A stretch of DNA of 64,000 nt from Balneolales bacterium ANBcel1 (GTDB lineage Bacteria; Bacteroidota; Rhodothermia; Balneolales; Natronogracilivirgulaceae). The stretch spans positions 248,001 to 312,000 of the forward strand of contig JARULB010000001.1 of NCBI GenBank assembly GCA_029688905.1, written 5' to 3'. This document shows positions 1 to 19,813 of this stretch, in pieces (the stretch's first letter is position 1; each line of letters begins with the position of its first letter). The position numbers and the translations under genes were made by a program. The notes beneath the pieces are model-generated. The model did not search any database. It was given only the letters and a program-made list of their open reading frames with translations, and was not told the origin of the DNA.

Positions 1-1429
1 GCCGGATATACGTTTCCCGCTCCATCTCAGGCATTCTTCCGATAATCGCCGCCATTTGTTCCACATCCCGGTCGGTGATCTGTGTCTCTCCTCCAACTGA
101 CTGAAATCCCCTGTTTGAGAGACGCGCCGCGATTTTCTCGTATTCGTAGAAAGTGAGGTTACGCACCTGCGACAACGAAAACAGAATGCGGCCGGCTTCT
201 TCCATACCATACTTTTTAAGCACGCCGCTTTTGCGGTCATCGGGCAGGTGACTGAGCACCAGCGCCTTAACCCGTTCTTTTTCGGATGAGAGAAGCTCCA
301 TAAGCTGTTCGTCGCTCAGGTAGTGCACAAAATTAAAGGTGTGGAGGATGGAGAAGCCGGTTGAAGCGGCACTCGCGGTGGAGGCCAGTGCCATTTGCTG
401 CTCGTGTTCAATGCTGTCATGAACGTTTCCCCCCGCTACCGCGTGTCGGCCTTCTTTTTTTTTTTTTCGCGAAAGCATGACCATCAGGTACCAGACCAGC
501 AGTGCCAAAAGCAGCGCAAGCAATACGGCGGCAGCCAGCATCAGGTAGAAGAGGCGGTTGGAATCGGCGAAAAGACCTTCGGGGGCGGGCGCTTCGGCCA
601 CTGCAGGCTCTTCGGTGCGCAGATTCCGCCTGACCAACTCGAACGTGTCGCCGCGCTCCGGATCTATGTCGATGCGGGAGGTGACCGTCTCGCGCATCAG
701 CTCGAGATCCTGCTCGGTCAGCATCGAATCAACGCGCACAAGGATGTGCATCCGCTCCAGTTCGGGTACGCGGGTCTCCACCACCTCGACACCTTCCTGC
801 TGTACCCGCGATGTTGTTTCGCGCTCACGAATCAGGTCACGCGGGACAAACGGCAGGCCCGGAAGTCGTCCTTCGGGTTCTGCGGTCTCTTCAGGGGCCG
901 CGGCAACGGGCACTTCCCGGCGCAGGGTGCGCACCGACATTTCCACTCCGATTCTAAGCATATAGTCCTCCGGCCTGAAAAACCGGTTGATCGCCTCGGT
1001 AAGCACCTCGTAGAGCTGCTGCTCCAGCTGCATGGTCTCCAGGGCGGTGAGCTCTCCGTCGGAGAGGTCGCTTCGGCGGACTGCGGTCCGGTCGCCTTCA
1101 TCGGCGGCGGCAAGCAGCGCCTGATTGGCGGCGGTCACCGGAATACGAAGGGTACTGCCTGCAGCGAGGCCCTCCCCGCACTGCGGATTGATGGCGCGCA
1201 CGCGATCCGGCGATACCCGATAGGCCCGGGCAATGCCGAAGCAGTTCTGCCCCGGCCGCACCGTATGGATGAAAAAGTCGGCGCCGTCATGCCGCTCCAG
1301 GGTTTCGGTGATCGACACACGAGCCTGGCCCGCGGCGCTCTGTACAGCCGGCGTCAGGGTTACGGATGCCAGCAAGATCGCAATCACGCCTGTAAACCGT
1401 CGTTTTTGGACTAATGGTTTCGGTATCAT
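1..1429 (-). CDS. LysM / FliF-like ring domain / FliG-like fusion protein, partial (runs off left edge)
   Basis: An uninterrupted frame of 476 codons runs from the ATG at 1429 to the window edge. Residues 11-35 look like a signal peptide or first membrane segment. Residues 55-97 are a LysM domain (HTVRPGQNCFGIARAYRVS, then a second half ending LRIPV). Residues about 130-170 and 223-266 resemble the periplasmic ring-building region of the flagellar MS-ring protein FliF; IDIDPERGDTFEL is close to the FliF motif before its last membrane span. Residues 293-319 are one strong membrane span followed by RKKKK. From residue 365 (FNFVHYLSDEQLMELL, ALVLSHLP) it resembles the armadillo middle domain of the rotor protein FliG and continues past the edge. 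Flagellar FliF and FliG are normally separate proteins. It lies 112 bases downstream of the usher gene on the same strand, so co-transcription is possible. No stator gene is visible. The domain calls are by eye; a membrane ring with a fused cytoplasmic switch domain is inference. Confidence 0.75.
   Translation of the reverse strand, partial: MIPKPLVQKRRFTGVIAILLASVTLTPAVQSAAGQARVSITETLERHDGADFFIHTVRPGQNCFGIARAYRVSPDRVRAINPQCGEGLAAGSTLRIPVTAANQALLAAADEGDRTAVRRSDLSDGELTALETMQLEQQLYEVLTEAINRFFRPEDYMLRIGVEMSVRTLRREVPVAAAPEETAEPEGRLPGLPFVPRDLIRERETTSRVQQEGVEVVETRVPELERMHILVRVDSMLTEQDLELMRETVTSRIDIDPERGDTFELVRRNLRTEEPAVAEAPAPEGLFADSNRLFYLMLAAAVLLALLLALLVWYLMVMLSRKKKKEGRHAVAGGNVHDSIEHEQQMALASTASAASTGFSILHTFNFVHYLSDEQLMELLSSEKERVKALVLSHLPDDRKSGVLKKYGMEEAGRILFSLSQVRNLTFYEYEKIAARLSNRGFQSVGGETQITDRDVEQMAAIIGRMPEMERETYIR
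455..467 (-). other. 13-A homopolymer at the FliF-like/FliG-like junction
   Basis: Thirteen consecutive T on the plus strand (A in the coding strand) fall just after the membrane span of the fusion gene. The annotated frame reads through as four Lys codons and continues into the FliG-like part. Losing one A brings a TAG at 436-438; gaining one brings a TGA at 417-419. Either slip would therefore give a protein ending shortly after the membrane span with a basic tail and no FliG-like domain. Transcriptional slippage at A runs of this length is known in bacteria; its use here is inference, and a sequencing error in the run is an alternative. Confidence 0.5.
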
Positions 1430-1541: not shown

Positions 1542-4500
1542 TCAGTCTCGTATTTCAGAAAAATCAAAATCTCCGTTTTCACCTGCTTGAATGATTCTTT
1601 CCAGTTCCTCCACATCGGGGATCTCCAGTTCGGGGCTGCGTTCGGCGGCACGATCCCAGTACTGCTGCGCCGCCTCACGCCGTCCGTGAACAAACAGTAA
1701 CGAGCCCTTGAGCGCCAGTCCGTAGTCGGTTTCGTAACGCTCCAGCGAGGCGTCGATCAGCTCCAGTGACGCGCCGAATTGACCGCGGTAGAACGCCTCC
1801 TGCGCACTCACATAGAGGCGGATGGCTTCCATGGATTGCCCCGCCAGGGCCCGTGCCAGCTGCTCCTCATCCCACTCGGGCTCCGGATCTGGCTCGGGTT
1901 CGGGTTCCGGCGCCTCCCGCGGCAGCAGCATGATATTCAGGCCCTCCAGAAAATCGCCGTGCGCGAGTGCCTGCACTTCAAATTGGAGTACCGGCGGCTC
2001 TGAGCGGGCATTCAGAAAATTCTGCTGTGTGGTGTCGACCCACGCCTCATAGCGCCCGGGGGGGATCTCCATGGCGTAATAGGAACCGTCGGAGAAGGTC
2101 CGCATCGTCTCGCGGAAGTCACCGTCCACCTGCCGGAGCATCACCCGCACCCCGCCGAGGCCGCGCTCGGTCTCCCCTTCCCGCCGCTGCACCATGCCCT
2201 CGATCACCCCGCTCATGTAAAACGGAATGTCCATGGGCTTGAACCGGTTGGGGTCGGATACGAACGAGAATTCGCGGATCACCGGAACCAGCATGGGATT
2301 GGGGATGGCCCCTACATTGACCATCAGGTTGTTCCGGTAATACTGCTGAAGCTGGGTGACGCGGATGACGCCGTCGTTGTGGAGCCGGCTCTGGCCGGAG
2401 CGGTCGAGCCGTACTGCGTTGGCGCGGATCAGCTCGTCGCCTTCGTCGAAGGTGCCGCTGTTGTTGTTGTCGGTGAACAGGCGGATGGACGCGGCCGAGC
2501 GCCCGACCTGCTGGCGGTTTTCGAGGACCAGCCGGTTGTGGTAGTCGTCGTAGCCGATCGACCCGCGGAAGTTCTGGCGGAAGGAGCTGCCCTGGCGGCT
2601 GGTGCGCGCAGTCGAGGTGGAGCGCGTGCGGTTCAGGTCGAACGAGAGGCCGCCCTCGATGGTGTTGAAGCCGGTCACCAGGTTGCGGGAGAAGGTGAAG
2701 CGGAGCCGCCCGCCGCCGAAAATATTTCGGGAGATTTGGAGATCAAGCCGTTCAAACTGGTCGCGCCGCATGCTGTAGTCGAGCTGCCCGCGCAGGTAGG
2801 TGCCCCGGATGATGGCGGGTATGGAGCGCGCGCGCGGCGCCGAGTAGGAGGCGGTGGTACGGATGCTGCCGTCGGTGGACTGCAGGTCGCTGCCCAGCAT
2901 CCGGTAGGTGTTGCGGAACCCGCCGCGCAGGTTGACACGCCCCAAACGCATGCCGAGGTCGGCGCGCAGCCGGTTGGTGCTGCCCGTGCCGAAATCCTGG
3001 CGGTCGCCGCCTACCCGGAAGTTGAACGGCACCGGACCAATCTCAATCGGGATGAACAGGTTGGCGCGCGCCTCGTAGTCATAGCGGCCGATGTTGTAGA
3101 GGCCATCATCGGCGGCGTAGTAGGTGTAGCTGGCATCCCAGCTCATGGAGTTGGGGTAGACCACACTAGCCGACAGGCGGTAGTACGCCTCGGGGGCGAT
3201 GTCGATGTTGGCGAGATACCTTCCCATAATACGGCTGGAGATGCCGGCGTAGAGATGCGGACGCACGTCATGCACTTCGGTGAGGTATTCGCTGCCCAGA
3301 CGCACGGTCATCCAGTTGGTCGCACCGTAGGCGAGCTCGGCCGAGGCCACCCCCGAGTCATCTTCGGCGCCGAACACCGGCTGATCCATCTGCCCGCCGC
3401 TCAGATGATAGGTGAACTCGCCTGGTGGCAGAAACGTGAACGGTACCTGGATGCGTTGGTCCTCTTCCCGAATCCTGCCGTCGGGCTCATAAATCATGAT
3501 GCGCACATTGCTGCTTCCGTAGGTCAGCGGCACGGAAAACCGGTAATTGCCCAGCTCGTCCACCTCCACAAAATCGATCAGGCGGTTGTTGATGAACAGT
3601 TCCACTTCGGATTGCGGCGGGGCGGTGCCGCGAAAGACGAATTCGTCGAGCGTGCGCCTCGGCTCAATAGGCTGGTTGGTGAGGTGGACCCCGCGGAACT
3701 GGCGGGATTGCGGACCTTCGGTGCGGTGCTGCCCGAGCCGGATCTGGGTAATGGCGGGCTGGTCGTGTATTGCGTAGCGCCAGCGGAGGCCGCTGGTGGT
3801 AAAACTGCTGGACATCTCCGACCAGGATCCGAACAGGTTGCCCTGCACGTCGCCGCCCAGGAATTCGGCCCCGATGCTGGCGGTGTAGCTGTAGCTGTTG
3901 TATTGATCGGTGATATTGCCGGTAAGCGAATAGTCGAGGAAGCCGCCGCCGAGAAGCTGACGGTCGCGTTCAAACTCCTGCGGGAAGAGCCGGCGCTCGC
4001 GGACCCCCAGCTCGGCCCGGGCCCGGCGCCTTTCACGTTCAATCCGCCGAACGACCGGCATGATGTCGGTGGTGTTCAGGCGTACTACCAGGCCGCTCAT
4101 ATCCACGGTGAATTCGAGTCCGAATACCTCGTCAAACACTTCGGGCAGCAGGTAGAAATCCAGCTCGTCGATCAGCATGTCATCCGCGGTAAAGGCGGTC
4201 TGTTCGCCGTCGAGGGTGGCGGTACGGTTCTGGAAGTGGATTTCGTAGGGGCGGTCGGTTTCCAGATAATGGCCGTGGAGGCGAAGGTTCTGCGAATCCA
4301 ACTGATAGTAGATTTCGAGCAGGTCAAACAGCTCGGTGGTGGGCAGGTAAATGCGATCTGTGTCGTAGGAGTACATACCGATGATGACCACATCTCCCAC
4401 TCCGCGAAACCGGAAGGAGAGAAACACCTCTTCGCGGTCGGGCTCCGCGGGTGTCTGCGCTATCGATACCACCGCGCCTGTGCCGCCTGTCACCACTCCG

Positions 4501-4568
4501 GCAGCGGGTGCCAAGAGCAGCAGCATGAAGCCGATCAGGAGTGACAGTAACAGGGGTGGATAATGCAT
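1542..4568 (-). CDS. Outer-membrane fimbrial usher-like protein (FimD/PapC type) with C-terminal TPR tail
   Basis: About 1008 residues from the ATG at 4568, chosen because it is followed at once by a hydrophobic signal peptide (residues 4-25); an in-frame ATG at 4784 would add 72 residues of unlikely sequence. Residues about 40-180 look like a periplasmic N-terminal domain. The bulk has alternating aromatic/polar strands typical of a large beta-barrel. Near residue 320 a segment (VELFINNRLIDFVEVDELG, then NVRIMIYEPDGR) matches the usher middle-domain pattern. Residues about 785-870 resemble a carboxypeptidase-regulatory-like beta sandwich (IEGMVQRREGE). An acidic Glu/Pro linker near 885-905 precedes TPR-like helices to the end. 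The role would be to export and assemble the pilins encoded upstream, with the chaperone as partner. The TPR tail is not standard for proteobacterial ushers. Family placement is good; substrate assignment rests on context. Confidence 0.8.
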   Translation of the reverse strand: MHYPPLLLSLLIGFMLLLLAPAAGVVTGGTGAVVSIAQTPAEPDREEVFLSFRFRGVGDVVIIGMYSYDTDRIYLPTTELFDLLEIYYQLDSQNLRLHGHYLETDRPYEIHFQNRTATLDGEQTAFTADDMLIDELDFYLLPEVFDEVFGLEFTVDMSGLVVRLNTTDIMPVVRRIERERRRARAELGVRERRLFPQEFERDRQLLGGGFLDYSLTGNITDQYNSYSYTASIGAEFLGGDVQGNLFGSWSEMSSSFTTSGLRWRYAIHDQPAITQIRLGQHRTEGPQSRQFRGVHLTNQPIEPRRTLDEFVFRGTAPPQSEVELFINNRLIDFVEVDELGNYRFSVPLTYGSSNVRIMIYEPDGRIREEDQRIQVPFTFLPPGEFTYHLSGGQMDQPVFGAEDDSGVASAELAYGATNWMTVRLGSEYLTEVHDVRPHLYAGISSRIMGRYLANIDIAPEAYYRLSASVVYPNSMSWDASYTYYAADDGLYNIGRYDYEARANLFIPIEIGPVPFNFRVGGDRQDFGTGSTNRLRADLGMRLGRVNLRGGFRNTYRMLGSDLQSTDGSIRTTASYSAPRARSIPAIIRGTYLRGQLDYSMRRDQFERLDLQISRNIFGGGRLRFTFSRNLVTGFNTIEGGLSFDLNRTRSTSTARTSRQGSSFRQNFRGSIGYDDYHNRLVLENRQQVGRSAASIRLFTDNNNSGTFDEGDELIRANAVRLDRSGQSRLHNDGVIRVTQLQQYYRNNLMVNVGAIPNPMLVPVIREFSFVSDPNRFKPMDIPFYMSGVIEGMVQRREGETERGLGGVRVMLRQVDGDFRETMRTFSDGSYYAMEIPPGRYEAWVDTTQQNFLNARSEPPVLQFEVQALAHGDFLEGLNIMLLPREAPEPEPEPDPEPEWDEEQLARALAGQSMEAIRLYVSAQEAFYRGQFGASLELIDASLERYETDYGLALKGSLLFVHGRREAAQQYWDRAAERSPELEIPDVEELERIIQAGENGDFDFSEIRD

Positions 4569-5042
4569 TGTAAACGGGTTCGGCCCAAACGTGCCGGATG
4601 GCAACAGTACCGGGATACCGGGTGGATGGAAAAATGACTGGATTTTCGGCACTGATTCAATACATACAAACAGACAGACGGCGCCTTTGGCAGCCTGTTC
4701 CAGTGCTTTTGCCCAATAAACAGCAATATCGGAAAAAATGTGCCGAATCTCACCGGAATGGCGGTTAGATTGTTCTAACGACAACGGTTGGAAAACGGGC
4801 TGGAGCAGATGAAGATCCGGTGTTTTGAGGCGCCGCGCCTATGCGTTTTTACATAAACGGCCCCGAATATTAACCATTCTTAAAGTTGTGCGCTTTTCAG
4901 GCGCATTCCCCCTGATTTCGGGGATAAAACGTCCGTTTTTCGCTTATCGGGCGTCCCAGGAATTAAGAAAATATAATGGGGGAGGAATACACCGGGGGTG
5001 TGTTCTCGAAGAAGAGATAAGTGTAAGGCAGTGAGACCATAG

Positions 5043-5154: not shown

Positions 5155-5994
5155 TTACGGGATGGTAAAAGTGACCGATTCGGAGACCGGGGGGCCTTGC
5201 ACAATGTCACCTGAGGAAACATCGGGGCGCCGGGTTTCGAAGCGCACATCGGCGGTATAGCTGCCGGAGGGGAGGTCGGAGGCGTCAAACGAGACGCGAC
5301 GTACCGCGTCCATGTATACGGTCGTCGAGCTGCGGCGTTCGTGGACGACGTTGCCGTTGGCATCGGTGACGGTCAGGAACAGTGAGCCCAGGAACGGGGA
5401 GTTGCCGGTGCGCTCCACATCAGCGCGCACCACAACGTCATCCTGCTCCAGAGAGGCGGTCAGGTTCCGGAACTGCACGCCGGTGGTGACACTGCCTTTC
5501 TTGTAGAAGCCGGCGGTCACCTGTTCAAAGCGGAAGGTGATCTGGGCCTGCACGCCTTCAGCCACTTCGTCGTCGATATCGGGCACGGCGGGATTGGAAG
5601 CGGTCTTGATACGGGTCCAGTAGGTGCCGTCGGGGATATCGCCGGGCGGACGCACGGTGAGCCGCACGGTCTGGCGTTCACCGGGCTGGAGGGTGAAATT
5701 GCGCGGAAATCCGCGAACCCACTCGGCGATGGAGTAGCGCTCCTTCGCCTCCTCGTCCTCATAATTCATGAAGCTGTTGCCGTCGGCATCGGTATCGGGG
5801 TAGCCGAACTCAAACGACAGGGCCACCTCCTGGGTCTGATCCGAGCCGTTGATGACGAGGAACGTACCAAAGCGGGTCTGGTCATCGATAAACAGGGCGG
5901 TCGGGGCGATGGTGACCTGCGCCACCGCCGATTTAAGCAGTAGTCCGGCAAGCAAAAAGAAAAACGTGCCAGCGCGCTTGAATAGAGGGATCAT
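5155..5994 (-). CDS. Periplasmic PapD-like pilus chaperone
   Basis: About 279 residues from the ATG at 5994, selected because MIPLFKRAGTFFFLLAGLLL begins a signal peptide ending AVAQ; an upstream in-frame start at 6120 adds 42 implausible residues. The mature protein starts VTIAPTALFIDDQTRFGTF, which fits the first Ig-like domain of pilus chaperones; the first domain ends with a QPGERQTVRLTVRPPGDIPD stretch resembling the PapD G1/F1 region. A second beta-rich domain follows. The chaperone would hold pilins in the periplasm and deliver them to the usher encoded downstream. It is somewhat longer than classical PapD-type chaperones. Recognition is by pattern and by the usher/pilin neighbourhood. 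Confidence 0.75.
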   Translation of the reverse strand: MIPLFKRAGTFFFLLAGLLLKSAVAQVTIAPTALFIDDQTRFGTFLVINGSDQTQEVALSFEFGYPDTDADGNSFMNYEDEEAKERYSIAEWVRGFPRNFTLQPGERQTVRLTVRPPGDIPDGTYWTRIKTASNPAVPDIDDEVAEGVQAQITFRFEQVTAGFYKKGSVTTGVQFRNLTASLEQDDVVVRADVERTGNSPFLGSLFLTVTDANGNVVHERRSSTTVYMDAVRRVSFDASDLPSGSYTADVRFETRRPDVSSGDIVQGPPVSESVTFTIP

Positions 5995-6263
5995 GGATGG
6001 GCCAATTTTGTGCCAATAATAAGAGCTCCCGTTGCGGGTAACCCGTTGTATTACAATATCGCTAACGTAATCAAAGCTTACAAATGTTGCAACTAAAAAA
6101 GTGGCATAATTGTAAAGCATATAACCCGAGACTCAAAGAGGATCAATACTAGAAATACGGCCCGTTTACGGACCTGAATTGTTGCAACCAACGGGATGGA
6201 TTTAATTCTGTTTTTGAGAAAAGGCGTTATAGTAAGACTGTGAAACGACTATCACGTTAGAAT

Positions 6264-6474: not shown

Positions 6475-7002
6475 CTATAATTCGTAATCGATAGTCAGGG
6501 TAAATTCACCGCTGAAGAAATCCGGATCAATATCCTCATCTTCCATCTCCAATGTTCCACCAACCCAGAATGTAGCATCACCGCCTGCATCTAAGTCAGC
6601 TGTCTCAGTGGTCAAAATTGCACCACCACCGTTTTGTACAATCATCGGCACAAAATTAATTGTCTGATTAGTTGCATTTCCTTCAAGCGTAACATCTCCA
6701 AATGTCAATACAACTGTTGCCTCATCAACCCCGGAAAGGTCAAACTGACCTGTTTCAGCACCTGTTCCAGTATTAATTTCAGAATCAATACCACCTGAAT
6801 TGTCAGGTGTAAGAACTGCATCTGAATCACCATCAGTAATGTCACTACCAAAATCCAAAGCTCTCTCCCCAGTAAGTGTCAGCGCAGCATTAATACCTGC
6901 TCTTACCACAATATCATCAGAGACTTCTGTTGACTGAGCAGCTACCGTACTTGCTGAAATTACGAGGAAAAACACCAAAGTTATTATGCTTGTATATTTC
7001 AT
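6475..7002 (-). CDS. DUF4402-type pilin, probable major subunit
   Basis: 175 residues with a signal peptide (MKYTSIITLVFFLVISASTV, cut near AAQ) and an acidic, Ala/Thr-rich beta protein ending FSGEFTLTIDYEL. This ending, and the internal WVGGTLEM strand, match the pattern of DUF4402 family pilins. A purine-rich ribosome site (GGAGAAG) sits about 5 bases before the ATG, the clearest one in the cluster. It is flanked by 444 bases upstream and its own strong terminator downstream, so it is probably transcribed alone and at high level. It is visibly AT-richer than neighbouring genes. It would be folded by the PapD-like chaperone and exported by the usher. The family call is strong; the major-subunit role is inferred from its separate expression signals. 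Confidence 0.75.
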   Translation of the reverse strand: MKYTSIITLVFFLVISASTVAAQSTEVSDDIVVRAGINAALTLTGERALDFGSDITDGDSDAVLTPDNSGGIDSEINTGTGAETGQFDLSGVDEATVVLTFGDVTLEGNATNQTINFVPMIVQNGGGAILTTETADLDAGGDATFWVGGTLEMEDEDIDPDFFSGEFTLTIDYEL

Positions 7003-7446: not shown

Positions 7447-8004
7447 TCAATGGTACTCCACGGCCATGAACACCTCGGCATCATACACACCGGCCGGAAT
7501 GTCGCCGACATCGATTTCCCCGTACACATAAATATACGCCGTGGCAACCGGCACAGGAGTATCCGGCGAAGCCTGCTGCGGCGCGTCCTCCCTTATCGGG
7601 AACAGGGCCGCAGCGCCGGTAATCGGCTGCAGATGGTCAATGTTGTTCTGGTTGCGGTTGGCGAAGCCGACATCCAGCGTAAGCGGCACCCGGAATTCCG
7701 GCGCCTCCGCCGACTCCAGGTATTCCGGAATTTCGAGTACAACGTCCACCATCAGGTTCTGCGGACCCGTAATCGCGTATGTGCCCATGTTCGGGTCGCC
7801 CAGCTCAATCCGGATAATGCCGGAGTTGGGAACCACCGCGCCGAAGTTGAGCGGCGTCATCTCCTCGGCCGTCAGCTCCGAATCAATCTCGAACGACAGC
7901 CGCAAAAATTGCGCTTCCGCGATAGCAGGCATCACCGCCACCAAAGCGGCAAAGAGCAACGCTTTGCACCGGCAGCCGCGGGCACTATGGATGGTAACAG
8001 CCAT
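7447..8004 (-). CDS. Pilin-like secreted protein, DUF4402-related
   Basis: 185 residues with an N-terminal signal peptide (ALLFAALVAVMPAIAEAQ). The mature protein resembles its upstream neighbour in layout: an early TPLNFGAVVPNSGIIRIELG strand, a central hydrophobic strand, a glycine-containing YVYGEIDVGDIPAGVYDAEV segment and a short final strand (VFMAVEYH). This is the DUF4402-like arrangement in which the last strands carry the pilin fold. Its ATG overlaps the upstream stop by one base (TGATG), so translation is coupled. It is probably a minor or adaptor subunit; no individual role can be assigned. Confidence 0.65.
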   Translation of the reverse strand: MAVTIHSARGCRCKALLFAALVAVMPAIAEAQFLRLSFEIDSELTAEEMTPLNFGAVVPNSGIIRIELGDPNMGTYAITGPQNLMVDVVLEIPEYLESAEAPEFRVPLTLDVGFANRNQNNIDHLQPITGAAALFPIREDAPQQASPDTPVPVATAYIYVYGEIDVGDIPAGVYDAEVFMAVEYH

Positions 8005-8618
8005 CAGATATCGTAGGAGACTTCGATAATGATTTCCGCCGAATAGAACCCGGCGTCCTGGCTCTCACCCACCTCAATGGAGCCGCCAAGAAACAGGTAG
8101 GCGCTTTCTCGGGGTGGCACATAGCCCGAGTGCGGCGGGGTAGGCGGCGGACCCGGAGGCCCTCCCGTCCTGCGAAAGATGGGAAAACGGGCCGAAGTGC
8201 CGGTAAACAGCTGTCGGAACGCCGGGGTGGTATTGCCGCTGCCCTGGTTGGCATACGCCCCCTGCAGGGTAAACTCCATCCGCTCATTCTCTTCGGTCGT
8301 CGGCAGCCCGCCGAGTGTCAGATACGGGGGCGCGTCCAGGGTCACAAACACATCCAGGTACCTGACCCCCTCGATCTCGACAATCACCACATCCTCGCTG
8401 TTAATATCAATTTCAACCAGCCCGTCACCCGAAATCAAAAAACCAAAGTCAAGTTCATCGTTGCCGCTCAGGGGGGTGAGCACCAGCGAATAGTGGCCCA
8501 TGGGATCATCTTCGGGGATGTAGTCGCCGAAATTGATCTGCGCGGCGGCCGGCACCGCAGCCGTCAGCCAGAGCAAGCCTGCCAGTGTCACTGCGGTATG
8601 TCGGTGCGTTGAAGCCAT
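8004..8618 (-). CDS. Pilin-like secreted protein, DUF4402-related, Pro-rich insertion
   Basis: 204 residues with a signal peptide ending near AVPAAAQ. It follows the same plan as the two neighbouring subunits: an early LDFGFLISGDGLVEIDI strand, a mid-section starting YLDVFVTLDAPPYLTL, and a final YLFLGGSIEVGESQDAGFYS segment ending in a beta strand (IIIEVSYDI). A proline/glycine stretch (GGPPGPPPTPPHSGY, near residues 152-166) interrupts it and could be an exposed loop. It ends in a TGATG overlap with the next subunit gene. It lies in a three-gene run (9345 to 7447) with probable shared transcription. Confidence 0.65.
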   Translation of the reverse strand: MASTHRHTAVTLAGLLWLTAAVPAAAQINFGDYIPEDDPMGHYSLVLTPLSGNDELDFGFLISGDGLVEIDINSEDVVIVEIEGVRYLDVFVTLDAPPYLTLGGLPTTEENERMEFTLQGAYANQGSGNTTPAFRQLFTGTSARFPIFRRTGGPPGPPPTPPHSGYVPPRESAYLFLGGSIEVGESQDAGFYSAEIIIEVSYDI

Positions 8619-8706: not shown

Positions 8707-9345
8707 TTACAGATACTCGATTTCTACCGTAAACTCGCCGTCGTAGGCGCCCTGGGTCGCCCCGCGGATGTCCACGCGGCCGCCGATCCAGAAGTAATAC
8801 TCGCCATCTTCGTTCAGCTGGAAATCGCGGTTCTCCAGTTCCAGCAGTTCGGACGAAGGCTGATCGTCGATGTCGTTGCCGGCCACTTCATAGAAAAATG
8901 TGAGGGTTTCGCCGCCCCCGATGCGGGTCAGTTCCCGCTCCTGCAGAAAGCTGATGCGGACCTCCGCGTTGGGTTCGCCCTCGGCGCGCATTTGTCCGGC
9001 ATTGATGCTGGTCATCGGATCTACCACGATCTCCTCCTCCCTGGTCACCTGCCGGTCGAGGACGATATCGCGCAGGGTGATCATCGCCACCTCCATGTCG
9101 GTCGTGGCCGTCACCGACGCCGAAACCGAAATCGTCGCCGTCACATCATCGTTATTGCCGTTGAACCCGTTCTGGGCCAGGGCCGGGACCGACGGCAGAA
9201 AAAGCAGCACGGCGAGGACCATTACGGCGGGTGGTAACAGCCGCGCCAGGCCACCACTAAGGGAGCCGTTCAAGCAGCCGGACCGCTTGCGCCGGATAAT
9301 CAGAAAAAAGGGCAAAAAAAGATTCAAAGCTTCTCCGTGTTGCAC
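8707..9345 (-). CDS. DUF4402-type pilin subunit, first gene of the subunit operon
   Basis: 212 residues from the ATG at 9345; a later in-frame ATG at 9222 directly precedes the hydrophobic core (VLAVLLFLPSVPALAQ) and could be the true start. The mature domain has the DUF4402 pattern: ITLRDIVLDRQ near the start, FLQERELTRIGGGE in the middle, and YYFWIGGRVDIRG followed by AYDGEFTVEIEYL at the end, closely like the end of the major pilin at 6475-7002. It heads a tight cluster of three subunit genes. The upstream region carries the motif shared with another surface gene of the locus (9412-9430). Confidence 0.75.
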   Translation of the reverse strand: MQHGEALNLFLPFFLIIRRKRSGCLNGSLSGGLARLLPPAVMVLAVLLFLPSVPALAQNGFNGNNDDVTATISVSASVTATTDMEVAMITLRDIVLDRQVTREEEIVVDPMTSINAGQMRAEGEPNAEVRISFLQERELTRIGGGETLTFFYEVAGNDIDDQPSSELLELENRDFQLNEDGEYYFWIGGRVDIRGATQGAYDGEFTVEIEYL

Positions 9346-9505: not shown

Positions 9506-12500
9506 TCATTTTACCAGGGTCATTTTACGTGTGGAAATCCCGTCTTCGGTAACCAGCCGATAGATATAGACACCTGAAGCGTGGTGTTCCGCACTCCAGC
9601 TTACCGTATGGCTGCCGGCGGAAAGCTCGCCGTCGATCAGAGTAGCCAGGCGCCGGCCCAACAAGTCAAAGACCTCGAGCCGCACCTGTCCGCTGCGGGG
9701 CAGTGTAAACGGGATGGATGTGGAGGGATTGAACGGATTCGGGTAGTTCTGAAGCAGCGCGGGTTCGTCCGGCAGATACGCCATCTCGCCGCGGGTGCTT
9801 ATCACAATGCTGAAACGCGGCTGACTCTGACCTGCTACCGCTTTTGCAGTCCGCGTGTCATGACCTGCCTTTTCATCTTCGGCGGCACCCTGACCGGCTT
9901 TTGTCGCCGGCTGTTCCGCACCGTCATGACCAGGAGTGCGGGCAATGCGGGAAGGCAGTCCGAACACCACGCCGGGCGAGGTATTCCGGTCAGGTCCCGC
10001 CGTATCCGCCGGACCTTCCGCAGTCTCCTTATGATCGTCACTGTCTTTCCGCTTTCCGGCGACCTGATCCGACATAAGCGAGCCAGTGGTGGCGTGCCTG
10101 ACGACATACCGCTGCTCCTCCATCATGTTGACCGCGTGTCTTTCCTCATGATCCATCAGGATTAGCGTGTAGTCTTCGTTCCAGTTGGCCGACCGCTCCC
10201 AACTGATTTCGAATATCCCGGAATATGCCTGACCGTTTTCGGCGGCTCCGGCATAAAACGGCAAATTCAGCGTACCCGTCAGATTATTCGGCAGACTGTT
10301 GATGGCCTTACCGGCTTCTCCGGGCTTCATGGATGTCGCAGCGGTGATCCAGGTGTCGTTGAGCGGTTCCAGCAGATAGGCGTCGTAGCGGTCGTGCCCG
10401 GTGCGCCCTTCTTCGGACAACATGATCCACGAGCGGGCGTTCATTCCCGCTACGACAACTTTGAGGGCAAGAAGCTGCGGAGCGTCATCCCCCGTCGGCC
10501 GATGTTCCGAGGCAGTAACCAGATTCTGGCCTGCCTTGCCATAAAAGGTGCGGTCGGAACCCGTCTTCGCCTCGTTGGTAAACCCAAGCTGGGGACTGGC
10601 ACCACTGGCCTTTACCCAGAAAGCCTGAAACGGTGCTATGAGTCCGCCTGCAATTTCCGGATCGCCTGCCACTCCATTCCAGACACGGTAATAGCCCGAT
10701 CCGCCGTTTGCCGCAGGGTCCCAGATGTAAATGGTGTTGTCGATGCCGCTGCGCACCCATCCGGGGTCAGCGTCCCATGAAAGGGCCGAAGCGGTCGGGT
10801 TGCCCACCAGGTTCCAGCCCTCATCGACTCCCACCGAATCGACAAAAACGCCGTTGTCCACCTGAAACTCCCTCTCGGTAGCACTCAGGCCGGTGAAATC
10901 AAAGCGGTTGCCGCCATCGGCGTTGAAAGGATGTTCCTGGCCGGAGACAGTCATGTGCACCGGCAGCTGGTCGGGATACACCGACCCCGAGGAGCTGCCA
11001 TCCCGGTTCAGCCGCCCCGCCCCATCGAACAGATAGTGAAAGTAGCCGCGTCCGGCCGTAACCTGCTCATTGATGCTGCCCGGGGCACGCCAGCCCTGCT
11101 GGGTGGTTCCGGCTTCGGATTCGTCCCACCACATCAGGTTGGGCTGCAGGTTGTCGAAATCGGATCCGCTGAAGCCCTGGGTGACCAGGTTGCCGGAGAA
11201 CATGTCGGAGAAGTCGGTGGCGAGCGGAGAGGTGACGGAGCGCCAGCCTTTTTGCCCATCGAACCGGCGGCGCATTTCCAGCAGCGGGTTCTGGTCACTC
11301 AAATTAAGATACCGGACATCCGATTCCAGAAGAATTCTGGCGTTGCCTTCAAGTGAGATTTCGGCGCCATCCCGGATGGCGAACAGCGGACCGGCTGCAA
11401 CGGTAAGAAGCGCGTTGTTTTTGATTGAGAGGATGCCACCGTCGTCGATTTCCACTTCCAGGGCGGGAGAACCGGAAATCACCGGATCGTTGGCCGTTCC
11501 ATCGGGAATGGTGATGATGGATGTGGTGCCGGGAAGGGTTCCGGTGCTCCAGTTCGACACATTGAACCAGTCATCATCCACACTGCCTTCCCAGACAAAC
11601 GCATCGGGAGCGATGTACCGCAGCACCACCACACCGGTACCGCCGGCACCTCCTGCACCGCCGGCTCCGCTGCCTCCGCCGCCACCGCCGCCCGTATTGA
11701 CGGTTCCGGTGACACCAACCGGGCTCGCTCCACCCTGACCACCACCGCCGGTACCACCGCCTCCCTGTCCACCGGCAGCCTGAGCTCCGTTACTTCTTGA
11801 CCCTCCACCGCCGCCGCCGGCAAAGAAGCCGTTAACACCCACGGTGCTTCCGAAAAAGGCCGAATAATCCAGGCCCGTCCCACCGGAACCCCCGTCCCGG
11901 TTGTTTGCAGCGCTGCCTGCACTGCCCGCACCCCCGCCACCGCCGCCGGTCGGTACGTTCCCCTGTTCTGAGCCCGCGCCGCCATCGGTTCCCTGGCCCG
12001 GTTCACCGGCACCGCCGACGTTGCCGTTGTCACTACCGCCGCCACCCGAACCGCCTGACAAGCCGGCCGACTGCGACCCGCCTCCACCGCCACCGGTCGC
12101 GGTCAGTACCGATCCGTTCTCAAACCCGGAGTTGCCGCCGGAGCCCCCGCCGTTTGTACCGGTGCCTGCGGCACCACCGGCACCTACTGTGACCGTGATT
12201 TGCCCTGCGGCGGGCACGTCCTGCTCAAAAACCACTCCACCGGCGCCACCGCCGCCGCCGCCGGTTCCCCCGCCGCCGCCGCCACCGGCGACCACCAGTA
12301 CATCCACGCTCTCCACACCCAGCGGCAGGGTTGCCGTGCGGTTTGTGCCGCTTTCAAAAACCTGGACACAGTACACCGTGCCGTTATCCTCAAACTCGAT
12401 GGCGCGGTCGCCGATCTGCTCACACTGGCCGGTTTCATCCACAGTAAAAGCCTGAGTGGCGTTGGTTAGGGACGGGTTGGCCGCTTCCAGCAAATAGGTA

Positions 12501-15500
12501 TCGCTCAGGGACGCTGTAGCCCGGAAATTGGCTGCGGACTCCCCGTCGCCAACGGTTACCTGCGTAATATCCTGAGTGTCTGCGAAATCGCGGAAGGTGA
12601 CTCCCGCGGGTGCGGAACTCAGCGTAATATCCGTTTGGCCGCTGCTCAGCGCCTGGTTGCCGAACGCATCCCGAAGCGCTACGGTAATACGGGCGGAGGT
12701 CTGCCCGGGGGAAATAGCCCGTTCGGGAGTAGTAAAAACGATGTTGTCCGGATCGGCGGGGATGACCTCAAAGGAGGCGCTCACCGCATCAGTCGTGACC
12801 CCCGCAGCGTCAAACACAAGGGTGTAGCTGCCGGTCTGATTGATCACCAGATCATCGAAAACACCAATGCCGTTGGCGTTGGTGTTCACAGTCAGTGTTC
12901 CGGCATCAAAAGAGTATCCGCCCTGTTCACTTACGGTGACCGAAATCCCTTCAACCGGATTGCCCGACGCGTCGGTCACGATCACTGCCGGCGGACCCTG
13001 AACAGTCTGACCGGCGACCGATTCGGCAGGTTGCGTATTCACAGCCACTTCCTCGGCCTCCACTTGTGTGATTTCAAAAGTCTCACTTTGATCGGAATCC
13101 AGTCCGGAGGCGGTGGCGGTCAGCGTATAGGTACCGGGCTCATCCACGCTAAGGTCATCAAACGTAGCCACTCCGTTCACCGCGTTCACGGTAAGCGTAC
13201 CGAAAAGAGTGGCTCCAGCGGGATTTGTGAGCGCGACCGTGACCGGGTGGGTTGCGCTCGGCACCAGCTGATCGGCGTTATCGCGAATTTCAACTGTCAC
13301 CGGCGGGGTGATGGTTTGGTTGACGGTCGTCTCTGTGGGCTGGTCGGCGAAAGCCAGCCGGGTGGCGCCCACGACGTCAATCGCCGTTGTAAGCGACACC
13401 ACTTCATCGCCATTGGAGTCAAGCGCGGCGCCGCGGATGCGGATCACGCTGCCGTGCGTATCGTCGGCGTTATAGGTGACATCCACCGTGCCATCCTGTC
13501 CGGTGACGGCCTGCGTTGCCGGGGTGATGGATCCGCCGCCTTCGACAAGAGTAAGCGCGACGGTCACATCTTCCGCCGGATCAAAACTTTCGTCAAGAAC
13601 AAGAAAGGTGACGGTAGTCTGGCCGTCCGGTGCCACCGGGTCTTCGGAGATCGCGTCAATAAACAGGAAGTACACCTCCGTCGGGATTACCAGCACCTCG
13701 TTGGAAATATCGCTTTCGGCTTCGCCGGTATTTTGCGCGGTTGCGGTGATGATGACGCCCGGCTCCACCAGATCCCCGATGGTAAGTCCGCCTCCGTCAA
13801 TGGCCGGCTGTGAAAAGGAGGCTGAGGCGGAGGATGTTTCCAGCACCAGGTTGCCATCAATAAAGAACCGGTTGATATCGCCCGGATTTGCGGTGATGTC
13901 GATGGCATCGTTAAAATCGTTGACAAGCTGCTCGGCGGCTCCGTTTTCGATCACTGGAGGCGGGGCGGTTTGCTGGCTCTGGATGATGGCGGGATCCGAA
14001 GGGTCGCTTACCAGTTTGCCTCCGGCCTGGGCCGTTGCGGTAATCTGGTCACCGGTACTGTACACGGACAGGTCCACGCCCTCAAAGGTCCAGTTTCCGA
14101 ACGCGTCGGATGTGGTAGTACCGATCTGGTCTCCATTGATAAAGACTGTGATAAAAGCTCCCCCATCGTTGTCAAAACCGGTGATATCGGTGTTGGTCTG
14201 GCTGGTCAGATAGGTGCCGGTAATAACCGGCGGATCGGTTTTCTCCAGATTGGCCTCCCCGACGATCACCTCGTTGGATTTCAGGGAAACCATCTCATCT
14301 TCTGCGGAATCAAACGCTCTGGCGTAGATGATGTCGCCATCTGTCAGGGACACTCCCGCGTCAATCGTGACGGTGCGTGCGATGCTGTTGTCGTTGTTTT
14401 CGCCTATTTGGTTATCATCCGAATTGAGGTAGAGAAAAACCGTTGCGCTCTCTGTGGGAGCATCCACATCCACGCTGGTATCATTGGATGAAACTGACGG
14501 TGAGGTGATGACGGGCGGATCGGTCTGCGTGCCTCCATCCGACCTGAAAACAAAATCCGACTCACACTGATCTCCCCATTGTGCGGTTACCAGGAAATCC
14601 TCGTTGTTATAGGGATTTCCTCCGAAAGGTTGGTTATCCAGTGTAAAGTCAACATCTCCGGTCGCACCATCCTGAGTAAACACGGCATAATTGGTGACGC
14701 CATCGGGATTTTCATCCGCCAGGGTGGACGCGAACAGTACCGGCTGGCCATTTTCATCCGTCTGGTACAGGCGTATCACTAGATCTGCTTCCTGGGTATC
14801 GTCAGGCAAACCAGGAACAACACCGACAAAATTATTTCCCTGGTTATCGAGATTGATCGGCGGCACGGTACACACCGGTGCCTGGCCGAGCACGGTAACG
14901 GGATCACTGAAAGCGGACTGGCTCTTTCCCGTTGCGTCCGCCCGGGCTCGTACCTGCTCACTCTCCGTCAACCCTGGCGAGAGCGAAACGGTCCATGTGT
15001 TATCGGCCACGGTGGTATTATAGGTGGCGGTTCCACCATTGGTGACCTCTACGATTATGCTTGTGCCATCGGCTTCAATGCTGGTTCCGGATATTTCGGT
15101 GTCGCCGTCCAGAAGAGGCGTAGTTATGGAAGGAACCGATGTGACGATATCATCAAACCCCCCGTTTTCATCGAGGTTGTCGCCGCTGCTCAGGGGCATG
15201 GAACCCAGCACTGTTTGCACCGCGAGGTCCTCACTGCCGAAATCACCATCGGAAACACCGCCAATATCGCCGATGCGGCTTCCGGTCAGATACGCACCGC
15301 TGGCGCTGGTAATGGTGGTAGCGGCCACTCGGAAATTCTGGCTGGAATTGAAGGGCATAATACTCCATGGCACATAATAGTCGTAAAACGCATATTGGCC
15401 GGAGCCGAAGTTGCCGGCAAAGGCTTTCTGGAAGTGGCTGTCAAGGGGCAGCCTGGTGGAGAGCAGGGTATTTCCGTTGCTGTCGTAGATCTGAATTCCC

Positions 15501-16018
15501 TGCTGCCCGCCGCCGGTTCGCAGTATGACCTCGTAATCGGGAGTTCCGTTGAGCTGTGTGTCAAACAGAAAACTGTATCCCTTGGAAGCGTTGGAGTAAT
15601 CCACCAGCCTGAGGCGGAACAGCAAGTTGGTGCCATCGCTGAACATGAACGCCCCGGGGTCTTCGTAGCTACCAGCCTGGACACCGACCAGGTCGGTGTG
15701 CGCGCCCCCGGTAGCAGCATCCCCGGCTTCCTCCTGGAAAAGTACCGGCAGTGGATGGTAGTTGATTTCACTGGCCGCACCGTAATCGATATTGGCAGGG
15801 CTGAAGCCGGTGGCATCGGCGGATACGAAACCATCACCATTGGGATCCAGAATGGCATTTCCGCTTCCTGTTGCCGGCTTGAAAATCTGTCCGGGAGTCT
15901 GTGCCAGGGTTTCTCCGGGAAGATGGATGCCAATCAGAACCGCAATCAATACCACCCACATATATGGGCGGCCGGCACTGCATGTATTATTTCCCCGTAA
16001 AAAGATCAGCGTGAGCAT
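9506..16018 (-). CDS. Giant type IX-secreted adhesin-like protein with Ig-like repeats and glycine-rich block
   Basis: 2170 residues. The signal peptide core is VVLIAVLIGIHLPGETLAQ; an ATG at 15961 directly before it is an alternative start. An N-terminal region of about 250 residues carries a DPNGDGFVSAD calcium-binding-like loop. Several Ig-like or invasin-like repeats follow (stretches such as TYTLTATASGLDSDQSETF and TVTFLVLDESF). A strongly glycine-rich block spans about residues 1240-1465, then a long beta region holds a GQKGWRSVTSPL segment shared with the neighbouring 1200-residue protein. The end has the NYPNPFNPSTSIPFTLP block and a tail ending YIYRL...STRKMTLVK, a type A sorting signal of type IX secretion. 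It would be exported through the type IX machinery, not the usher, and anchored or released at the surface. The ligand is unknown. Confidence 0.8.
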   Translation of the reverse strand: MLTLIFLRGNNTCSAGRPYMWVVLIAVLIGIHLPGETLAQTPGQIFKPATGSGNAILDPNGDGFVSADATGFSPANIDYGAASEINYHPLPVLFQEEAGDAATGGAHTDLVGVQAGSYEDPGAFMFSDGTNLLFRLRLVDYSNASKGYSFLFDTQLNGTPDYEVILRTGGGQQGIQIYDSNGNTLLSTRLPLDSHFQKAFAGNFGSGQYAFYDYYVPWSIMPFNSSQNFRVAATTITSASGAYLTGSRIGDIGGVSDGDFGSEDLAVQTVLGSMPLSSGDNLDENGGFDDIVTSVPSITTPLLDGDTEISGTSIEADGTSIIVEVTNGGTATYNTTVADNTWTVSLSPGLTESEQVRARADATGKSQSAFSDPVTVLGQAPVCTVPPINLDNQGNNFVGVVPGLPDDTQEADLVIRLYQTDENGQPVLFASTLADENPDGVTNYAVFTQDGATGDVDFTLDNQPFGGNPYNNEDFLVTAQWGDQCESDFVFRSDGGTQTDPPVITSPSVSSNDTSVDVDAPTESATVFLYLNSDDNQIGENNDNSIARTVTIDAGVSLTDGDIIYARAFDSAEDEMVSLKSNEVIVGEANLEKTDPPVITGTYLTSQTNTDITGFDNDGGAFITVFINGDQIGTTTSDAFGNWTFEGVDLSVYSTGDQITATAQAGGKLVSDPSDPAIIQSQQTAPPPVIENGAAEQLVNDFNDAIDITANPGDINRFFIDGNLVLETSSASASFSQPAIDGGGLTIGDLVEPGVIITATAQNTGEAESDISNEVLVIPTEVYFLFIDAISEDPVAPDGQTTVTFLVLDESFDPAEDVTVALTLVEGGGSITPATQAVTGQDGTVDVTYNADDTHGSVIRIRGAALDSNGDEVVSLTTAIDVVGATRLAFADQPTETTVNQTITPPVTVEIRDNADQLVPSATHPVTVALTNPAGATLFGTLTVNAVNGVATFDDLSVDEPGTYTLTATASGLDSDQSETFEITQVEAEEVAVNTQPAESVAGQTVQGPPAVIVTDASGNPVEGISVTVSEQGGYSFDAGTLTVNTNANGIGVFDDLVINQTGSYTLVFDAAGVTTDAVSASFEVIPADPDNIVFTTPERAISPGQTSARITVALRDAFGNQALSSGQTDITLSSAPAGVTFRDFADTQDITQVTVGDGESAANFRATASLSDTYLLEAANPSLTNATQAFTVDETGQCEQIGDRAIEFEDNGTVYCVQVFESGTNRTATLPLGVESVDVLVVAGGGGGGGTGGGGGGAGGVVFEQDVPAAGQITVTVGAGGAAGTGTNGGGSGGNSGFENGSVLTATGGGGGGSQSAGLSGGSGGGGSDNGNVGGAGEPGQGTDGGAGSEQGNVPTGGGGGGAGSAGSAANNRDGGSGGTGLDYSAFFGSTVGVNGFFAGGGGGGSRSNGAQAAGGQGGGGTGGGGQGGASPVGVTGTVNTGGGGGGGSGAGGAGGAGGTGVVVLRYIAPDAFVWEGSVDDDWFNVSNWSTGTLPGTTSIITIPDGTANDPVISGSPALEVEIDDGGILSIKNNALLTVAAGPLFAIRDGAEISLEGNARILLESDVRYLNLSDQNPLLEMRRRFDGQKGWRSVTSPLATDFSDMFSGNLVTQGFSGSDFDNLQPNLMWWDESEAGTTQQGWRAPGSINEQVTAGRGYFHYLFDGAGRLNRDGSSSGSVYPDQLPVHMTVSGQEHPFNADGGNRFDFTGLSATEREFQVDNGVFVDSVGVDEGWNLVGNPTASALSWDADPGWVRSGIDNTIYIWDPAANGGSGYYRVWNGVAGDPEIAGGLIAPFQAFWVKASGASPQLGFTNEAKTGSDRTFYGKAGQNLVTASEHRPTGDDAPQLLALKVVVAGMNARSWIMLSEEGRTGHDRYDAYLLEPLNDTWITAATSMKPGEAGKAINSLPNNLTGTLNLPFYAGAAENGQAYSGIFEISWERSANWNEDYTLILMDHEERHAVNMMEEQRYVVRHATTGSLMSDQVAGKRKDSDDHKETAEGPADTAGPDRNTSPGVVFGLPSRIARTPGHDGAEQPATKAGQGAAEDEKAGHDTRTAKAVAGQSQPRFSIVISTRGEMAYLPDEPALLQNYPNPFNPSTSIPFTLPRSGQVRLEVFDLLGRRLATLIDGELSAGSHTVSWSAEHHASGVYIYRLVTEDGISTRKMTLVK
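11620..12290 (-). repeat. Glycine-codon low-complexity block inside the giant adhesin
   Basis: About 670 bases of GGN-rich, interrupted repeat encode runs of up to six glycines separated by short polar inserts. The plus strand shows CCGCCG runs. It encodes a glycine-rich domain and is a likely site of copy-number change and assembly error. Confidence 0.7.
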
Positions 16019-16201: not shown

Positions 16202-19200
16202 TTACTTCACCAGTGACATCTTTCTGGTGCGCACCACTCCGCCGGCTTCGAGCCGGTAGATATAGGTGCCGCTGCTCATGGATCCGGCGTCCCAGACGAC
16301 CTCATGAAGGCCTCTTGTGTAGATGCCGTCGGCCAGCAGGGCCACTTTGCGGCCCAGGATATCGTACACGGCCAGCCTCACCCGGCCCTCTTCCGGCAGT
16401 GAAAACCGGATGTTGGTGGACGGGTTGAACGGGTTGGGGTAGTTGGACCGCAAAATCACTTCCTCGGGAACCGCCTGACCGTAATCAAGCGAGGGTATTC
16501 TGCGGTCGATGCGGATTTCAAACCGGGTATCGGACGATGCCGCCATTTGGTGGAGCACCATGGGTCCGCCGAGCTGGTTGACACTGACAACGGGGGGACC
16601 GTCTTTGGCAGCGGACTTCCGGCTATCGGTTCCGGCATCGGCCGCCATTTTGAAAAACGGGCTGCTGCCGGATGCCAGGTCAAAGGTGTAGGAACTGTGC
16701 CTGCGCATATCCACCTGATCGCCGGTCCGTTTGTCCACCAGGATAATCGAAATATCCTCCGGAAAGTCGTGCAGGCTGTTCCACTCCAGCTCGGACTGCC
16801 CTTGCAGCGCCATGCCGTGGATCACACCGTAGGTTTCCAGGGGGATGGACATTTTGCGCTCGACCCGATCCGGCAGACTGTTAATCGAAAGTTGTGAGCG
16901 ATCGTCGCGAATGGTGAAGACCGACAGGTAGGAGTTGGAGAGCGAGGCGAGCCGGTAGGCGTCGTAGCGGTCGCCGGAAACATCACCGGCTTCGGAGAAC
17001 ATCAGGCGCGTTTCCGCTTCCAGGTCGTTGTTATGATGGCGGAGCTGCAAGACGATTTCATCGAAGGAGTCCACGGCACCGCTTCCGGCGGCATGGCCTG
17101 CCATCTTGCCCCGGAAACCGGGTCCGCCGAGCGTGCGCGCGTCCGGCGAAACCGTAAGGGAGGCGCCCGGTTCTTCGGCCTTCACCCAGAATGCCTGGAA
17201 GGGGGCGATTTCGCTTCCGCCCAGCGAACCGGTTGCGCCGTTCCACTCCAGATAGGCGCCGTCGCCGCCGTTCGCGTTCGGATCCCACACATAGATGGTT
17301 TCATGGATATCGGTTTTATTCCAGTTGGCCTCATCGTCCCAGTCCAGCGACGCCCCGTACGGGTTACCGACCAGATTCCAGCCCTCATCTTCGGTGTAGA
17401 TTTGGCGTGCGGTGTAAGTGACACCAAAGTCAAACGGGTCGGCGGTATTCTCGGTACCGCTCACTGATATGGTGAACGGGAGCTGGTCCCCTCTGGCGGG
17501 TACGCTGCCGGGACCATCGGCGCCGTCGAATGCGTAGGCGAAATAGCCGCTGCCGGGGCTGACAGAGCCGGAAAGCGAGCTGATAGAGCGCCAGGCCATG
17601 TTGGTGGTCACGGTATCGCCGGGGGTATTTTCAGCGAAATGGAGGATATTGGGCTGCTGGTCGGGCAGGTCGGCGCCGGAAAAACCCTGGGTGGTGAAGC
17701 CTCCTCCGGGTCCGCTGAGAAAGTCACCGAATGTGGTTCCGACCGGCGAGGAGATCAATCGCCACCCTTTGTTGCCGGTGATATTACGCAGATAACGCAC
17801 CGTGCCGGAGCCTGTGCGGGTATCGGCGATCAGGCTGTTGCCCGAAAGGATGGTAAACTGTCCGCTGGAGAGGTTCAGGGTGCCGGCGACAAACAGGTCG
17901 GAGGTTGCGTCGACCCCGCCACTATTGTTGATACTCAGGTTGTTGACCTGTTGCGGCAGGCCGGTGCCGGTCACCTGCGCCGATGTGCCGCCGTAGATAT
18001 AGTTGGCAGCGGTGCTGAACGAGCGGGAAGCGGTGCGGATGTTGCCGGTATTGCCCGAGGCGGCGATGCCGTCGGGGGAGCCGATCTGCAGGGTTCCGCC
18101 GGAAGCAAGCTCAATGGCGCCGTCGCCGGTCACGGCCTTGTTGAGTGTGGTAAGGGTTCCGGAGGAGCCAACGGTGAGCGTGCCGGTGCTGTTGACGGTC
18201 AGCGAAGCGAGCGGATCGAGCGAAACGCTGCTGTTTATGGTGATGGTGTGGCTGTTGCCGATGACGACCTGATCGCCCGCCTGGCCGGGTGCGCGGGAAG
18301 CAGCCGGGCCGGTATGCGACTGGATGGACCAGCTCGAGGTCTGGTTCCAGGCGCCGGTGGTGATGCTGTAAAAAACGGGCGGGGAGTCGTCGATGAACCG
18401 CTTGCGGTGGTCGTCGTTGACCGGTTCCCCGTTCACATTGGCAACATTATTCACAAACAGATAATATTGCACATCGCTTTCGATGCCCGTTGCCGGGGCT
18501 TCAAAGGCCAGCTCCAGCGTAACCACATTATTGTTGGCACCGGATAAAACGGCTGAAGTGGCATCCGCCACTTTGCCTGTCTTGTCTACATTCAAAAACA
18601 CTTCGTAGTTAGCTGCTGTCTCCGCGCTCGATTGCTCCAGCGGGTTATTATTGTCGAAGTTCACCCGGATGGTGGTGGGGCCGAGAATATCTATGCTTAC
18701 GATATACGGGCGCTCGGTAATAATTTCGGGATCACCCGTTACCGTACCGACCACATTGAGCGTAGTGTTATTTACGTTTTGGTAGTCGGCGTCATCATCA
18801 ACTGTCATGTTATTGTTGACAAAAACATTAGCCTCAGATACAACATTAGCCCCTTCCTCAATCTCCAGATCGTAAAAGTTTATTGTATTACCATCGATAT
18901 TGCTACCAACTGTAATTATTGAGTTACTGGTAATGGTAACCGTACTTGTCTCCGGATTAAAGTCGGCATTCCCATCCAAACTGATATTTCCATCGAAAAC
19001 AATATTTCCGCTGCCCGCGTTAAAAGCGCCACTATTATTGAAAGCAGAATTACCGTAAATATTGAGCGAGCCATTATTCAGGTTGAAAGTAGCATCGTTT
19101 CCAATCACTAAGTCAGCATTGATGACCGGAGGCCCAGGATGACCGATATTTACCGTACCCGTTTGTACTGTAACAAGACTGCTGGAAACCAGAGAGAAAT

Positions 19201-19801: not shown

Positions 19802-19813
19802 CAATAATCAACA

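Follow-up and report, generated by a model that had tools for sequence, protein, structure and literature searches.

A family of single-chain FliF-FliG proteins linked to usher and flagellar-type stator genes in the Balneolales, with a reduced member in Balneolales bacterium ANBcel1

The 64,000-nucleotide stretch of Balneolales bacterium ANBcel1 analysed here (the window) carries at its edge a gene whose product combines a LysM domain, a ring-building domain of the FliF type, a membrane helix and the middle domain of FliG in one chain. With a probability of about 0.6, we consider this protein to belong to a family of flagellar-type rotors made in one piece, whose complete members would be ion-driven motors on a pilus or outer-membrane complex, the window copy being reduced and forming a static ring. 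The odds are about even for a more specific proposal, namely that in non-flagellated bacteria a chaperone-usher pilus is turned or powered by a complete ion-driven rotary motor, with one FliF-FliG chain as its rotor and MotAB of the flagellar type as its stator, and that the motor was lost in the window genome while the anchor ring was kept.

The fusion protein and its gene neighbourhood

The fusion gene occupies positions 2-1429 on the minus strand, corresponding to codons 1-476 of 512, with the remainder lying past the window edge; the complete gene in the source genome (L002:17891-19429) encodes 512 aa. Its shortness as a mere artefact of the window edge was ruled out, the gene ending 36 codons further on, where it overlaps the next gene. 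Along the 512 residues, a signal peptide is followed by LysM, a FliF-type RBM3 domain, one membrane helix and FliG_M. The initial annotation had read LysM, FliF ring domain, membrane span and FliG middle domain in a 476-codon frame directly downstream of an usher. The frame is real, Pfam and predicted folds agree on the domains, and the usher gene ends 112 bp before the fusion gene.

The LysM domain (residues 55-97; 1139-1267, minus strand) was recognised by Pfam (E 2.9e-5, 24.4 bits, cut-off 20.9), its predicted fold matches 4uz2 at 1.6 A over 46 columns (Foldseek), and it is periplasmic by topology. The membrane helix (residues 290-324; 458-562, minus strand) was assigned from the predicted helix and from sequence reading, with a basic SRKKKK stretch at its cytoplasmic end. 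The FliG middle domain (residues 374-438; 116-310, minus strand) is a clear Pfam match (FliG_M, E 3e-7, 31.0 bits, cut-off 25). FliG_C, the torque domain, for which a search past the window edge had been proposed, is absent from the complete 512-aa protein, which ends after the middle region, and FliG_N is absent too. No match to the window protein was found in NCBIfam.

The assignment of the FliF RBM3-like ring-building domain (residues 121-271; 617-1069, minus strand) came from structure. Of the two FliF profiles suggested at the outset, YscJ_FliF, which covers RBM1/RBM2, gave no match in the window protein or in the relatives scanned, its sole match in the window genome (G000) being the flagellar FliF; YscJ_FliF_C matched residues 204-266 below the Pfam cut-off (E 0.005). 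Prediction with the window protein and 17 relatives as input yielded a model with a mean pLDDT of 65 and a pTM of 0.31, so that only single domains can be trusted; its confident parts are the LysM, ring-building, membrane-helix and FliG parts. The best 18 Foldseek matches of the predicted fold in the PDB are FliF MS-ring structures (top E 3.2e-6), with FliG and LysM structures among the weaker matches after them. Structural re-alignment placed residues of about 121-271 on FliF RBM3/S-ring structures with Z scores of 11-13 (8z5v: Z 13.0, residues 121-271, 1.9 A, 101 aligned) and residues 360-447 on FliG 3usy (Z 13.3, 2.1 A, 88 aligned), both well above the next rows, which are OsmC-like. In the predicted structure, the FliF identity of the domain is secured by its fold, beyond the sub-threshold Pfam score. 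In addition, P190, G191, D234, R259, G260 and D261 of the RBM3 region are invariant columns, the last three forming the RGD motif conserved in the family.

Upstream of the fusion gene and on the same strand lies a set of usher, chaperone-like and pilin-like genes, of which counterparts are found in the operons called type A below. The outer-membrane usher (1542-4784, minus strand) is recognised by Pfam above the cut-off (Usher, 7.1e-8) and is 38% identical to the usher of the type A locus L044 (blastp E 0.0). Its C-terminal segment (residues 986-1053; 1626-1829, minus strand) is TPR-like and homologous to the TPR part of a lipoprotein encoded nearby (35% over 68 aa, pairwise E 1e-9), a relation that was also seen in the genome search. 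The next product (5155-6120, minus strand) is a periplasmic protein with 44% identity (2.8e-77) to the protein in the same slot of type A loci; it has no Pfam chaperone match, and a role as chaperone of the usher system is inferred from its position. Four pilin-like proteins follow, all on the minus strand and none with a classical pilin match in Pfam. Two are clear DUF4402 members, namely those at 6475-7002 (Pfam 1.5e-8) and at 8707-9345 (Pfam 4.1e-6; 6.6e-42 to slot A of type A loci). The one at 8004-8618 resembles slot B (2.8e-29) and is DUF4402-like below the threshold (5.6e-4), and the one at 7447-8004, without any Pfam match, corresponds to slot C (29% over 178 aa to the L044 counterpart, pairwise E 3e-27). 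Further upstream, two very large proteins of secreted type are encoded on the minus strand (9506-16018 and 16202-19804), the first with Gly_rich_2, a Big_1-like stretch and a Por_Secre_tail-like end; related proteins are encoded ahead of the pilin-like genes in several loci of type A.

Downstream, beyond the window edge, the gene of the TPR lipoprotein shares 4 bases with the end of the fusion gene and is followed by a gene named by reading as an Obg-type GTPase. No export genes are found near the fusion gene, and in the window genome no MotAB or ExbB/ExbD genes lie to its left, where the initial annotation had proposed to look; in the relatives, MotAB are located exactly there. The suggestion of a bacterium without a flagellum was not supported for the window genome. 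Another of its contigs carries fliG in a flagellar locus, where motB, motA, flgE, flgD, fliI, fliF and others were assigned by reading and position, and profile searches confirmed flagellar FliF, FliM, FlhA and one flagellar MotA. A dedicated stator elsewhere in this genome was ruled out, the other two MotA_ExbB genes sitting in loci of the ExbB/ExbD type.

Complete family members and their stators

A search of the phylum revealed relatives of about 620 aa in the same order, Balneolales, the assignment to which was made via named records such as Balneola sp. EhC07 and the MAG chromosome CP051242. Full family members, of about 585-770 aa, carry RBM3, a membrane helix and all of FliG (N-M-C) in one chain; LysM is present in the full-length relative L087 as well. 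The family was found in Balneolales and in one family (f38) of another class, and other families of the class of the window genome yielded FliG-sized proteins only. Not every match to the family within the order is a fusion, since many of the 61 matching genomes show a flagellar FliG only. Counted from tables, a full-length fusion occurs in 27 of the 117 genomes of the order sampled. Flagellar FliF is present in 14 of these 27 and absent from 13; the latter also lack FliM and FlhA in profile searches, and 12 of the 13 are at least 98% complete.

Two types of operon were distinguished, both of which occur on CP051242. In type A, pilin-like genes, a chaperone-like gene and the usher gene are followed by the fusion, a TPR lipoprotein, MotA and MotB. 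In type B, where pilus genes are absent, the order is fusion, a protein of 360-400 aa, TPR lipoprotein, MotA and MotB. The intergenic gaps often amount to a few bases or are overlaps, and neither these operons nor those of f38 contain genes for export apparatus, rod, hook or filament. Within the operons of the relatives, Pfam recognised FliG_M and FliG_C in the fusions, MotA_ExbB, and MotB_plug together with OmpA. Complete fusions with their own MotA and MotB, together with the 13 genomes without flagellar FliF, FliM and FlhA, lend support to the repurposed rotary or scaffold complex that had been suggested from the window alone.

Some features of these operons deserve mention on their own. 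MotB of type A is often 500-630 aa long (e.g. L044:10256-12019), and in the one that was scanned a C-terminal SPOR domain is present beside OmpA, which would be an unusual double wall anchor. The 360-400-aa protein of type B (L040:9166-10272 and counterparts) is conserved, and the motor clusters of f38 have a relative in the same slot; no sequence relative was found in Pfam, NCBIfam or the PDB. Read by eye, the sequence resembles an outer-membrane barrel with a terminal Phe in the C-terminal half and a domain of the CsgG type in the N-terminal half; it is probably a barrel-forming protein of the outer membrane. In family f38, a motor-only cluster was seen and, in one genome (G483), the whole usher-linked set: locus L146 holds an entire usher-linked rotor and stator operon which groups with type A of Balneolales and may stem from transfer between classes or from ancient inheritance. 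A 269-aa MotA (L182:1046-1855, genome G290) branches next to the MotAs of the operons; no MotB or rotor gene is visible within its 3-kb stretch.

The rotor and stator assignments were examined by structure and phylogeny. Compared with the PDB, the family profile matched FliG 1lkv (1.1e-37) and the FliF M-ring 8z5s (2.8e-4). In the predicted complete type A fusion, RBM3 aligns to 6scn with Z 14.1 at 1.5 A and FliG N-M-C to 8wiw with Z 15.3 over 279 residues; the rmsd of 11 A of the latter is as expected if the domains are placed differently, and with a mean pLDDT of 65-69 and a pTM of 0.31 the domain arrangement is not given by the fusion models. In the tree, the MotAs of the operons group with flagellar MotA against ExbB/TolQ with a support of 100. 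Those of types A and B form one clade (support 99), into which the single usher-linked MotA of f38 falls with type A. The FliG tree shows the same split, with all flagellar FliGs on one side; branches are long, so deep placements are unsure. A type B MotA matched only PomA/MotA in the PDB, and together with the tree this ruled out that the MotA-like genes of the operons are ExbB/TolQ.

Several functional residues are conserved. P173 and P222 of MotA and the ion-binding D32 of MotB are invariant (36/36), R281 of FliG is Arg or Lys in 38 of 39 proteins, and D289 is Glu in 31 of the 32 full-length proteins of types A and B. K264 and D288 of FliG are kept in part only. At two MotA positions with uncertain loop alignment, R90 is Arg or Lys in all 12 type B and in 14 of 18 type A proteins, and E98 is replaced in Balneolales, being retained solely in the motor clusters of f38. 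Since MotA E98 is replaced and MotA R90 and FliG K264/D288 are partly kept, the torque interface of these proteins, judged from the aligned residues, probably differs from the textbook one. Per-position counts revealed that the FliM-binding motif EHPQ is not kept whole in the full-length fusions, whereas it is kept in the flagellar FliG of the same genome. This loss fits the expectation for a rotor without a C-ring switch.

Loss of the torque domain, proposed mechanism and alternatives

The window protein keeps LysM, as in L087, RBM3, the membrane helix and FliG_M; by sequence comparison with full-length relatives from its own family it is a reduced family member from which FliG_N, FliG_C and the dedicated MotAB were lost. 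Similar cases exist. The relative in G296, with the same gene order as the window, has the FliF half only, and genome G112 possesses, besides a complete type A operon (L048), a second usher locus that encodes a protein of 343 aa with the FliF half only (L049:7857-8888). Where FliG_C is present and the flanks are intact, MotA is present too, and the three loci without FliG_C (the window, L097 and L049) have none beside them. A non-flagellar MotA is likewise not found elsewhere in G000 or G296. It is present in G308 and G319, which have complete fusions; G312, from the same genus as the window genome and with a full-length fusion, gave no match to a non-flagellar MotA in a genome that is only 76% complete. 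This co-loss, a pattern of three partly related loci, suggests that FliG_C and MotAB are functional partners in complete systems and that the window copy has ceased to generate torque.

From domain content, operon structure, homology, loss pattern and the conserved ion-binding residue, we infer ring assembly, rotation, a path of torque and an output as follows. The RBM3 domains of complete members would assemble into a ring in the inner membrane. This ring would be turned via FliG_C by ions passing through the MotAB stator, which the OmpA domain of MotB fixes to the wall. From the periplasmic face of the ring, torque would be passed via the TPR proteins to an outer-membrane complex, turning or energising a pilus; rotation of the pilus, its retraction or energising of the usher are possible outputs. 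The partner in the outer membrane would be the usher of a DUF4402 chaperone-usher system in type A and the probable barrel-forming protein in type B. That the motor drives the usher rests on gene order, and the formation of a ring by a periplasmic domain without RBM1 and RBM2 is not guaranteed. The window protein most likely forms a static, wall-anchored ring, which would be tied to peptidoglycan by LysM and dock the usher complex to the inner membrane.

The homology between the TPR lipoprotein and the TPR end of the usher, an adaptor-like arrangement, and the type B operons, which have a different probable outer-membrane protein and no pilus genes, would also suit a motor that turns no appendage. 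Such a motor would transduce force from ion flow in the manner of Tol/Ton systems, energising usher secretion, pilus retraction or the upkeep of the outer membrane via the TPR lipoprotein. We regard this as unlikely: motors of the Tol/Ton type need no FliG rotor, whereas here FliG_C is present with its key charges conserved, and the stator is of the MotA type.

For the window copy itself, the loss of FliG_N, FliG_C and MotAB, together with the FliF half that is left in G296, could indicate a functionless remnant in decay. This seems rather improbable to us, as the periplasmic part is still 39% and the middle region, with FliG_M, 49% identical (over 148 residues) to the full-length relative L086, the reading frame is intact and overlaps the next gene, LysM is intact, and so are the adjoining usher and pilin-like genes. 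A working rotor that uses the flagellar MotAB of the genome (L052) is very improbable and largely refuted by the absence of FliG_C, the domain pushed by MotA. Least credible is a place in the inner ring of a type III injectisome, an idea raised for the chlamydial FliF-FliG fusion, which is truncated in the same manner to an RBM-like domain, a membrane helix and FliG_M (PMC4768692), given that no export genes lie nearby, an FlhA-type export protein is absent from 13 family genomes and the operon partners are usher and MotAB.

Relation to known systems

With the flagellar motor, the family shares the RBM3 fold, the N-M-C organisation of FliG, and MotA and MotB with ion-binding Asp and OmpA wall anchor, and its MotAs cluster with the flagellar ones. 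It differs in that the FliF part has no RBM1 and RBM2 and is fused to FliG, the FliM-binding motif is missing, and the operon, free of export apparatus, rod, hook and filament, includes an usher or else some other protein of probable outer-membrane location; the genomes concerned often lack flagellar FliF, FliM and FlhA. The chaperone-like, usher and pilin-like genes follow each other as in chaperone-usher pili, but the usher has a TPR end and shares an operon with rotor and stator; classical chaperone-usher systems are not known to need an inner-membrane motor.

To our knowledge, no FliG- or FliF-like rotor exists in the GldLM, AglRQS, Tol and Ton motors. Like the proposed motor, these 5:2 motors are powered by ions, reside in the envelope and serve its machinery in the absence of a flagellum (PMC9389320), but their stators lie outside the flagellar MotA clade (PMC12505986). 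In a stator survey from 2025, flagellar stators formed one clade and non-flagellar relatives fell into the ExbB/TolQ clade (PMC12505986); the operon MotAs are outside the ExbB/TolQ group of our tree.

The view that no characterised protein has such an architecture must be qualified, as a natural FliF-FliG fusion is known from Chlamydiaceae (PMC4768692). This protein, the nearest case that was found, joins a truncated FliF to the middle domain of FliG in bacteria without flagella and is most like the reduced window copy. However, it keeps an RBM2-like domain and two membrane helices, comprises the M region of FliG only and is discussed with the injectisome, a link to LysM or an usher being undescribed. 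Engineered FliF-FliG fusions of Salmonella and Vibrio (PMC4768692; PMC11481574; PDB 8z4d) likewise make a covalent rotor subunit; these are man-made, contain full-length FliF and are part of a flagellum. They assemble, and in Salmonella rotation is unimpaired (PMC4768692). In the part of the literature that was covered, we found, apart from Chlamydia, no natural FliF-FliG fusion, no system with a non-flagellar FliG homologue, no rotor or MotAB with an usher, and nothing on DUF4402 with an usher. The novelty of the rotor-stator-usher system is provisional on this basis.

According to published descriptions, Balneolaceae either are non-motile or move by flagella, and gliding is unreported (PMC5167729). 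In a motility survey from 2025, 11% of non-motile species had FliG, FliM or FliN but no filament protein, and the function of these rotor proteins was left unexplained (PMC12199754). The family presented here is a conserved, specific case in which rotor and stator stay together, away from the genes for export and filament, and are associated with a different appendage. Should it rotate, a minimal FliG-MotAB motor would consist of about three proteins, which bears on the modular assembly or breakdown of the flagellar motor, and the reduced copies show what may stay useful once torque is lost.
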